In this document: piece by piece, positions 30,360 to 33,526 of the stretch
Layout: every line of letters begins with the position of its first letter
Position numbering within the stretch: the first letter of the stretch is position 1
Source: Cellulosimicrobium cellulans
GTDB lineage: Bacteria > Actinomycetota > Actinomycetes > Actinomycetales > Cellulomonadaceae
Direction of reading: 5' to 3'
DNA: 64,000 nucleotides
Assembly (NCBI RefSeq): GCF_016921195.1
Contig: NZ_JAFGYF010000002.1
Location: forward strand, 1 to 64,000
Notes under the pieces: generated by a model
Told to the model about the DNA's origin: nothing
Databases searched by the model: none
What the model saw: only the letters and a program-made list of their open reading frames with translations
Position numbers and translations under genes: made by a program

Positions 30360-30710
30360 ATGAGCGAGACCACCGACATTGCCACGCACGGCGTCAACCT
30401 GACCGACGAGGCCGCGGACAAGGTCCGCACGCTCCTCGAGCAGGAGGGTCGCGACGACCTGCGCCTGCGTGTCGCGGTGCAGCCCGGCGGCTGCTCCGGC
30501 CTGATCTACCAGCTCTACTTCGACGAGCGCGTGCTCGACGGCGACGCGCTGCGCGACTACGACGGCGTCGAGGTCGTGGTCGACAAGATGAGCGTCCCCT
30601 ACCTCGAGGGCGCGACGATCGACTTCGCCGACACGATCGAGAAGCAGGGCTTCACGATCGACAACCCCAACGCAGGCAGCGCCTGCGCGTGCGGCGGCTC
30701 CTTCAGCTGA
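30360..30710 (+). CDS. erpA: Iron-sulfur cluster insertion protein ErpA
   Basis: 116 aa A-type (HesB/IscA) carrier. The three cluster cysteines are in QPGGCSGLIY (~44) and SACACGGSF (~109, ~111). It inserts Fe-S clusters into apoproteins; nearby candidate clients are the Rieske protein QcrA and NadA. A weak GGAG-containing ribosome site precedes the ATG. It corresponds in position to Rv2204c. It converges with the TusA gene across a strong terminator. Confidence 0.95.
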   Translation: MSETTDIATHGVNLTDEAADKVRTLLEQEGRDDLRLRVAVQPGGCSGLIYQLYFDERVLDGDALRDYDGVEVVVDKMSVPYLEGATIDFADTIEKQGFTIDNPNAGSACACGGSFS

Positions 30711-30811: not shown

Positions 30812-31063
30812 TCAGGCGCCGAGCTCGACCGTGATGGCCCAGGCGTCGGTGCCTTCGGTGCCGGGGAGCGGCTCCTCCGCGACGACCGTGTGACCGCGCA
30901 TCCGGGCCCAGGCCGGGACGTCGAGCCGCGCGGCCGGGTCCGTCGACCACACCGTGAGGCGTGTGCCCGGGTCGTGGTCGCGCGCGGCGGCAGCGATCCT
31001 GATCACCGGGAGCGGGCAGCGCAGCCCGCGCGCGTCGACGACCTCGGGTGCGTCCCCCGTCAC
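30812..31063 (-). CDS. TusA/SirA-like sulfur carrier
   Basis: 83 aa. The TusA signature DARGLRCPLPVIRI (Cys ~16 in CPLP) and the Trp/Ser-Thr-Asp strand pattern (RLTVWSTDPAA) are intact. TusA proteins accept a persulfide on the CPxP cysteine and relay sulfur to acceptors. The GTG start at 31063 overlaps the TGA of the desulfurase homologue by 4 bp (GTGA), so the two proteins are made together and probably interact. The acceptor is unknown. Confidence 0.88.
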   Translation of the reverse strand: MTGDAPEVVDARGLRCPLPVIRIAAAARDHDPGTRLTVWSTDPAARLDVPAWARMRGHTVVAEEPLPGTEGTDAWAITVELGA

Positions 31064-32205
31064 AGGCCCTGCACCCCCAGCGTGGCGCGCACGCGCGCGA
31101 CCGCCCCGGGCAGCGCGGCGAGCAGGCGATCGACGTCGGCCTCGGTCGTCGACCGGTCGAGCGCGACGCGCACGTTGCCGTGCGTCAGGACGCCCATCGC
31201 GGCCAGGACGTGCGACGGCTCGAGCGAGCTCGACGTGCAGGCGGACCCCGACCCGACGGCGATGCCCTCGCGGTCGAGGTCCGTGAGCAGCGCCTCGCCG
31301 TCGACGTAGAGGAACGAGAACGTCACCACGTGGGGCAGGCGGTCGATCGGGTCGCCCACCACCTCGACGTCCGGGATCTCGGCGACGCGCGCGCGGACCC
31401 GGTCGACGAGCGCGCGGCGGCGCGCGTCCTCGGCCTCACGGTCCGCCAGCACCGCCTGGAGCGCGACGGCGGCCGCGAACGCCGCGGGCACGGACACCCC
31501 GCCGGGGGCCCACGGCTCCGGGTCCTCGGGGAACGGGCTGCGACGTCGTACGCGGGACCGGACCGCCAGGACCCCGACGCCGGGACCTCCGCCCCAGTCG
31601 GCAGGGTCGGCGGCGAGCGCGTCCCACGCCGCCGGGACCGTGTCGTGGCCGACGCTCGCCCCCGCGTCGACGAGGAGGGGGACGCCGACGGCACGCGCGG
31701 CCTCGTGCACGGCCGCGACGGGCTGGCGCGTGCCCACCTCGCCGTTGGCGAGCTGGAGCGCGGCGAGTGCGACGCCCGGGCGTGCGACGGCGTCGGACAT
31801 CGCCGCCGCGTCGACGCGGCCCGAACGGTCCACGCCCACGACCTCGCGCTCGAGCCCGCCGTGCTCGGCGGCGTGCAGCACCGCGGCGCGCTCGACCGCA
31901 CCGACCACGACCCGGCGTCCGACGCGCGCACGGCCTCCGGCGAGCGCCGCGACGCCGGTGTGCAGGGACGCCGTGTGGTTCGCGGTGAAGACCACCTCCT
32001 CCGTCCGCGCGCCGAGCGCGGCGGCGACGGCCTCGCGCGCGCCGTCGAGCAGCGCGGCGGCGCGGCGGCCCTCCGCGTGCAGGCGGCGCGGGTCGGCCCA
32101 GCCGTCGTCGAGCGCGCGGTCGAAGGCCTCGCGCGCGAGCGGGTGCCAGGGAGCGCGCCCGCCGTTGTCGAGGCGGGCCCGGCGATCGGGGGTGGTGTGT
32201 GTCAC
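31060..32205 (-). CDS. Cysteine desulfurase homologue lacking the PLP lysine
   Basis: 381 aa, fold-type I aminotransferase class V, clearly aligned with NifS/IscS over its length. The mobile-loop cysteine is kept in GSGSACTSSSLEPSHVL, and DGEALLTDLDREGI and RVALDRSTTEADVDRLL match IscS. However, the SGHK segment that carries the Schiff-base lysine is replaced by DPADWGGGPGVGV; the stacking His (EHKAVL in IscS) is an Arg (ERAAVL); the PLP-contacting Gln (DATQS) is Ala (DAGAS). It therefore should not bind PLP in the usual way. GGAGG is 5 nt before the GTG at 32205. Translationally coupled to the TusA gene; it lies next to erpA and the cytochrome oxidase operon. Databases usually call such genes cysteine desulfurase; I regard the activity as doubtful. 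Confidence 0.85.
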   Translation of the reverse strand: MTHTTPDRRARLDNGGRAPWHPLAREAFDRALDDGWADPRRLHAEGRRAAALLDGAREAVAAALGARTEEVVFTANHTASLHTGVAALAGGRARVGRRVVVGAVERAAVLHAAEHGGLEREVVGVDRSGRVDAAAMSDAVARPGVALAALQLANGEVGTRQPVAAVHEAARAVGVPLLVDAGASVGHDTVPAAWDALAADPADWGGGPGVGVLAVRSRVRRRSPFPEDPEPWAPGGVSVPAAFAAAVALQAVLADREAEDARRRALVDRVRARVAEIPDVEVVGDPIDRLPHVVTFSFLYVDGEALLTDLDREGIAVGSGSACTSSSLEPSHVLAAMGVLTHGNVRVALDRSTTEADVDRLLAALPGAVARVRATLGVQGL

Positions 32206-32605: not shown

Positions 32606-33526
32606 TTGCACTCGCAACCCCCTAGCCGCACACGGCGCACCATCCTGCGGGCGACGGCCCTCGCCGTCGCCGTCGCTGCGGTGGCGTCCGGCTGCGCCAG
32701 CGACACGGTCCAGCGCGGGTTCCTGCCCGGTTACGAGGACGGGGAGGTGACCAACCAGACCGCCCGGATCACGTCGCTGTGGACCGGCTCGTGGATCGCC
32801 GCCCTCATCGTCGGCGTCATCACGTGGGGCCTCATGCTGTGGTGCGTCGCCGCCTACCGCAAGCGCAAGGACGACCACCAGCTCCCGGTCCAGACGCGGT
32901 ACCACCTGCCGCTCGAGATCATGTACACGGCCGTGCCGATCATCATGGTCCTCGTCCTGTTCTTCTACACGGACCGCGACATGAGCGCCATCGTGGACAA
33001 GGACGTGGAGGCCGAGATGACCGTCCAGGTCATCGGCAAGCAGTGGAGCTGGGACTTCAACTACGTGGACGAGGACGTCTACGAGTCCGGCCAGCACCTC
33101 GCCGACGTCGGCGGCACCATGACGGAGGGCGCGGAGATCGACGGCGCCCCGGGCACGTCCGAGGCGCTCCCGACCCTGTACCTGCCCGCGGGCGAGAGCA
33201 TCCGCTTCGTCCTGGACTCGCGCGACGTCATCCACTCCTTCTGGATCCCCGCGTTCCTCTACAAGCTGGACATGATCCCGCACCGCACCAACGAGTTCGT
33301 GGTCACCCCGCAGCGCGAGGGCGTCTACGCCGGCAAGTGCGCCGAGCTCTGCGGCGAGCACCACTCCGGGATGCTCTTCAACGTCGAGGTCGTGGACCGC
33401 GCCGAGTTCGACGCGCAGATGGAGGCGCTCCGCGAGAAGGGGCAGGAGGGCCAGATCCCGGTGGAGGGCTTCAGCCGCCTCCAGGACCCGAACCCCGTCA
33501 CTGCTAGCACGGAGGGTGAGCACTGA
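32606..33526 (+). CDS. ctaC: Cytochrome c oxidase subunit II (lipoprotein form)
   Basis: 306 aa. The signal peptide [21 protein letters not shown] ends in a lipobox, so the mature protein is lipid-anchored at Cys ~28. Two transmembrane helices (~58-80, ~105-122) precede the periplasmic cupredoxin domain with an intact CuA site, [12 protein letters not shown] (two Cys, Glu, His, Met). It receives electrons from cytochrome cc (QcrC) and passes them to subunit I. The start is an unusual TTG at 32606 with AAAGG about 8 nt upstream; no other upstream start in frame has a better site. The stop overlaps the ctaD ATG by one base. Confidence 0.93.

Follow-up and report, generated by a model that had tools for sequence, protein, structure and literature searches.

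Our analysis revealed that a gene of Cellulosimicrobium cellulans encodes a cysteine desulfurase homologue that has lost the Schiff-base lysine while retaining the mobile-loop cysteine, two traits shared by its relatives read in the order. Since this homologue is strongly constrained, keeps an invariant sulfur loop and has no means of forming a Schiff base, it is best read as a pseudo-cysteine-desulfurase. We propose, with a probability of roughly 40%, that it works together with TusA, whose gene overlaps its own, and relays persulfide or offers a docking platform without PLP. The relevant features, all located in the analyzed stretch of 64,000 nucleotides (hereafter, the window), are the following:

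30360..30710, plus strand: erpA-like gene, convergent with the TusA gene (NCBIfam ErpA model above cut-off)
30812..31063, minus strand: TusA-family sulfur carrier, 83 aa, 4-base overlap with the desulfurase homologue (Pfam TusA, 3.7e-18)
31016..31018, minus strand: codon of TusA Cys16, in the CPLP motif (sequence)
31060..32205, minus strand: lysine-less cysteine desulfurase homologue, 381 aa, GTG start
31168..31170, minus strand: codon of Arg346, site of IscS Arg354, retained (164/164 in the order)
31237..31239, minus strand: codon of Cys323, the mobile-loop (persulfide) cysteine and sole Cys of the protein (164/164 in the order)
31597..31599, minus strand: codon of Asp203, Schiff-base lysine site (alignment)
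31606..31608, minus strand: codon of Asp200, site of a Ser in lysine-bearing relatives (Asp/Asn in 157/165 sequences of the order, Ser in 77/77 lysine-bearing sequences of the class)
31657..31659, minus strand: codon of Ala183, site of the PLP-contacting Gln183 (alignment)
31888..31890, minus strand: codon of Arg106, site of the PLP-stacking His104 (alignment)
32606..33526, plus strand: ctaC, cytochrome c oxidase subunit II, divergent neighbour, frame start as listed (Pfam COX2)

Alignment of the window protein with Escherichia coli IscS confirms what the initial annotation had described, i.e. the loss of the Schiff-base lysine (Lys206 to Asp203) together with that of the histidine (His104 to Arg106), the glutamine (Gln183 to Ala183) and the RSGT loop (APGG), and the retention of the loop cysteine (Cys323). 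In addition, the Ser of the SGHK motif is replaced by Asp200. The 381 residues include a single cysteine and no lysine; therefore, no Schiff base could come from another segment of the protein or, in a homodimer, from the other subunit, and the stand-in pocket lysine that would have contradicted the initial annotation does not exist. According to PMC9978102, the substitutions H104Q, Q183E and K206A each abolish the desulfurase activity of E. coli IscS. Since these three essential sites are changed and no lysine can substitute, PLP-based desulfuration is not expected, as previously proposed, and the window protein is very probably devoid of desulfurase activity on free cysteine. The structure model of this protein predicts an intact, IscS-like fold of type I, in which the mobile loop (residues 322-328, including Cys323) has a pLDDT <50. 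On the window protein, the 15 listed NCBIfam models all stay below their cut-offs, as they do on the lysine-bearing IscS of the same genome, so that these cut-offs do not tell the two apart. The closest named relative (83%) is found in Cellulosimicrobium marinum. A search of a plasmid collection for the gene at E 1e-40 gave no match, and no tRNA gene was found in the 64,000 nucleotides of the window.

A restriction of these losses to a single genome, which the initial annotation had put forward as a possible refutation, is ruled out. At E <= 1e-50, matches were obtained in 86 of the 101 genomes of the family and, with four candidates scored per genome, in 103 of the 396 genomes searched in the order. 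The order set, which gathers all matched genomes, includes 165 sequences from 164 genomes (95 from the family itself and 69 others; one genome has two copies). Position 203 is a Lys in none of these 165 sequences but an Asp (n = 123), Ser (n = 23), Ala (n = 8), Thr (n = 6), Glu (n = 4) or Gly (n = 1), whereas Cys323 is found in 164 of 164 sequences, the remaining contig stopping short of the site. The sulfur-carrying loop is thus under constraint, as had been claimed from the window protein, whereas the pocket varies: Gln is never found at position 183 (0/165) and His is found at position 106 in 25 of the 165 sequences. Moreover, 108 of these proteins are devoid of lysine over their whole length. 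No match was found in 293 of the 396 genomes of the order under the same threshold and number of candidates; therefore, the role of this gene is dispensable.

Outside the order, the 90 sequences sampled in the class all have the cysteine, 77 of them with the lysine and 13 without; the class also comprises at least 19 other genomes matched at E <= 1e-50, besides many weaker matches in which the desulfurase-TusA family is mixed with ordinary IscS. In the other classes of the phylum, the lysine is present in 19 of 19 sequences and the cysteine in 16 of 19, these sequences being the best matches of 19 of the 113 matched genomes and possibly including paralogues. Part of the relatives read and 80 named loci, after removal of rows that were >98.5% identical or shorter than 220 aa, were split into 88 lysine-bearing and 175 lysine-less rows. 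Cys323, Gly320, Glu156 and Arg346 are among the positions fully conserved in the latter, and 112 of these 175 proteins have no lysine at all. Several peculiar copies were also observed. In another class of the phylum, L330, L331 and L335 have the PLP lysine and the His while their loop cysteine is replaced by Arg or Ser (GSPRSGR, GSPSSGR). A genome of 1.9 Mb (G429) harbors two diverged lysine-less copies (L159 and L160), one loop having extra cysteines (GCGCTCG). Nocardioides sp. AX2bis (L218) shows a lone change of Lys to His (SSHHW) amid lysine-bearing Nocardioides relatives. Lastly, a contig of a MAG labelled Acidobacteria (L200) carries an actinomycete-like lysine-bearing copy, which reflects contamination or transfer.

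In a careful IQ-TREE phylogeny of 61 rows from which the motif columns were left out, the 21 rows of the order form a single clade (100/93) nested within lysine-bearing rows, and the lysine state changes at least six times. This topology makes a single loss at the base of the order probable, with probably about five other losses elsewhere. In a FastTree phylogeny of 269 rows, the rows of the order do not form one clade and five state changes are counted; given this disagreement, the number of independent losses is rough. Five long branches (L258, L263, L265, L272 and f30) are poorly placed in the trees. In the line of the order, the His was probably lost later than the Lys, since several families with Ser or Ala at position 203 still have the His. 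The Arg106-Asp203 pair is the mark of one later branch.

The association with TusA is an argument in favor of a relay. The neighbour TusA of the window scores 65.6 bits against a Pfam cut-off of 28.6 and has the CPxP cysteine (RCPLP). A TusA gene directly downstream (tblastn, E <= 0.01) or a TusA fusion was found in 135 of the 175 lysine-less rows (134 adjacent, one fused; 39 absent, one undetermined) and in 86 of the 88 lysine-bearing rows (70 adjacent, 16 fused; two absent). The TusA cysteine is retained in 134 of the 135 TusA proteins associated with a lysine-less homologue and in all 86 associated with a lysine-bearing one; ctaC is present at 258 of the 263 loci. The lysine-less fusion (L141, family code f52) has both cysteines. 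In Streptomyces, Kitasatospora and Actinospica, desulfurase and TusA are fused in proteins of about 460-520 aa (L210, L211, L216, L219, L233, L235, L243, L246, L250 and L252); both domains are visible in the model of the lysine-bearing fusion L210 (pLDDT 79.5, pTM 0.71, 10 sequences). The persistent link with TusA and the existence of a lysine-less fusion favor a relay or a dock for TusA. The IscS-fold protein, unable to hold PLP as a Schiff base, would take no sulfur from free cysteine. The relay is conjectural, as are the direction of transfer and the proteins involved: (i) Cys323, whose retention suggests that it still carries something, would be loaded with persulfide by a genuine sulfur donor of the cell (IscS, SufS or TusA itself), and (ii) this persulfide would then be handed on.

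However, the cysteine also persists in the 39 lysine-less rows without adjacent TusA, and TusA is therefore not the whole story. The Pfam TusA model was run on 23 genomes, including 20 picked for their missing adjacent TusA: four of these 20 have no match, 11 have weak matches only and five have a strong match inside a long open frame located elsewhere. The CPxP motif is missing from the matched stretch in the two weak matches examined (L302 and L303), while CPGP is present in the two strong matches examined. In the genomes of L295 and L297, which lack the adjacent TusA, TusA domains lie within long open frames (about 850 aa) that may encode sulfurtransferase fusions with several domains.

The loss of the lysine with retention of the cysteine has precedents in archaea. 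According to PMC7585200, the IscS of Archaeoglobus fulgidus has an Asp instead of the Lys, hence no desulfurase activity, and donates a Cys ligand to the cluster of IscU (primary papers: Marinoni 2012, Yamanaka 2013, Pagnier 2014/2015, cited in PMC7585200 and PMC8617193); PMC7585200 also describes IscS1 of Methanosarcina acetivorans as missing the catalytic lysine, clustered with IscU1, forming inclusion bodies on expression and having possibly an A. fulgidus IscS-like role. The chains of A. fulgidus IscS (PDB 4eb5, 4hvk; D199K mutant, 4r5f) are the top phmmer matches of the window protein and, like it, have the loop Cys, a replaced Lys and an Ala at the Gln183 site. They nevertheless share only 32% identity with it, and have the His and an RSGS loop, which the window protein lacks. 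Furthermore, the loss described here arose within Actinomycetota and is therefore independent of the archaeal one. The first of the rival readings, which we consider unlikely, transposes this archaeal model: Cys323 would ligate a nascent [2Fe-2S] cluster on a SufU/IscU-type scaffold and give no sulfur. Beyond the A. fulgidus precedent, this role would account for the members without TusA, and ErpA is encoded just past TusA in most loci examined from the family of the window. However, erpA and the TusA gene converge and thus do not belong to the same operon, which makes this link weak; the partner of the archaeal protein is IscU, whereas the neighbours of the window gene are the TusA, ErpA and ctaC genes, with TusA as linked partner and no linked IscU gene. 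In addition, the sole NifU_N match of the genome (C12:612554) adjoins another class-V aminotransferase gene, located elsewhere than the window gene, the two presumably encoding a SufS-SufU pair.

The genome also encodes an IscS with Lys and Cys, next to mnmA, that is 41% identical to the window protein. This lysine-bearing IscS and the presumed SufS-SufU pair probably cover the ordinary sulfur needs of the cell. They are also candidate partners in the second rival reading, somewhat less likely than the cluster-ligand role, according to which the window protein would be a pseudo-subunit or regulator that pairs with IscS or SufS, either to modulate this enzyme or to direct it to TusA. Lysine-less LCB1 plays such a part in serine palmitoyltransferase, and the predicted fold of the window protein is intact. 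However, a pure regulator would not need an invariant loop Cys, and the gene is linked to neither IscS nor SufS.

The residues retained in the pocket are an argument against a relay. Asp180 and Glu156 (each in 165/165 sequences of the order), Arg346 and, in nearly all sequences, Asn154 are residues of the IscS cofactor/substrate pocket that have been retained, and may thus still allow a ligand to bind there. The third rival reading, which we place slightly below the pseudo-subunit, is a thiol enzyme with another ligand, e.g. a cysteine-like or persulfide substrate, that would be bound in a pocket rebuilt from Arg106, Asp203, Asp200, Asp180 and Arg346. Asp200 and often the Arg106-Asp203 pair (118 of the 263 rows) are both new and conserved. 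However, His-Ser and other pairs are also found among the lysine-less rows, and the retained residues may be structural. As for the phosphate side of the pocket, Ser203, His205 and Thr76 of IscS contact the PLP phosphate (phosphate cup), and Thr78 belongs to this cup in the window family; a Thr occupies the Thr76 site in 80 of the 165 sequences of the order and Thr78 is retained in 52% of the 175 lysine-less rows. With the Asp or Asn at position 200, the Thr76 site shows that the old pocket has drifted or been remodelled, which speaks for the PLP-free reading. A non-covalently bound PLP with some activity left is very improbable. Although Asp180 is invariant in the order, the His, the Gln and the phosphate-side Ser (now Asp) and His are changed too. 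PMC9978102 indicates that E. coli K206A still binds some PLP but is inactive; it also reports R354K as fully active, so that the retention of Arg346 proves little.

The lysine-less homologue is under strong purifying selection: dN/dS (Nei-Gojobori) ranges from 0.08 to 0.21 in the 16 computable pairs out of 17, compared to 0.14-0.18 in four lysine-bearing pairs. A pseudogene is thus ruled out by these low values and by the loop invariant in 164 of 164 sequences. A decaying gene retained by chance is very improbable: the lack of a match in most genomes of the order would fit it, as would the dN/dS of the computable TusA-less pairs, which is about 0.2 in three of them and 0.11 in the fourth, but all values are far below 1 and the frame is open in the window copy.

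We thus retain the PLP-free relay or dock as the best explanation. Its extension to an order-wide module is more tentative: a desulfurase would have turned into a dedicated PLP-free persulfide carrier or dock. Arg and acidic residues would make up its rebuilt active site, and sulfur would be shuttled by the loop cysteine to or from TusA or, where TusA is missing, another partner. E. coli IscS, seen in complex with TusA in PDB 3lvj, is an active PLP enzyme and has the Lys, His and Gln that are missing from the window protein. The lysine-bearing actinomycete orthologues with adjacent or fused TusA (Microbispora, Micromonospora, Streptomyces) are the same gene, as indicated by ctaC, and share the TusA partner and the loop; they differ by their Lys and His and, in 49 of the 77 lysine-bearing sequences of the class, by their Gln, and probably still make persulfide with PLP. 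Titles and beginnings of abstracts in the open-licence part of PMC, which excludes most subscription papers, revealed no paper on the TusA-linked actinomycete family, lysine-less or lysine-bearing. As far as these searches show, the novelty lies in the scale and recurrence of the loss, the partnership with TusA, the additional loss of His and Gln and the total absence of lysine.

Desulfurase-like genes are usually taken for PLP enzymes, to which a large and well-conserved bacterial group is very probably an exception, the sulfur-bearing loop being among the most constrained parts of the lysine-less homologue. With their lysine-bearing sisters from Streptomyces and Micromonospora as controls, these proteins offer a clean natural experiment on the roles of the desulfurase scaffold other than persulfide production, which also bears on the job of the TusA pair adjoining the cytochrome oxidase genes. 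If our reading is true, the repeated independent losses of the lysine would mean that what is conserved in the desulfurase-TusA pair is its function as a relay and not its PLP chemistry.
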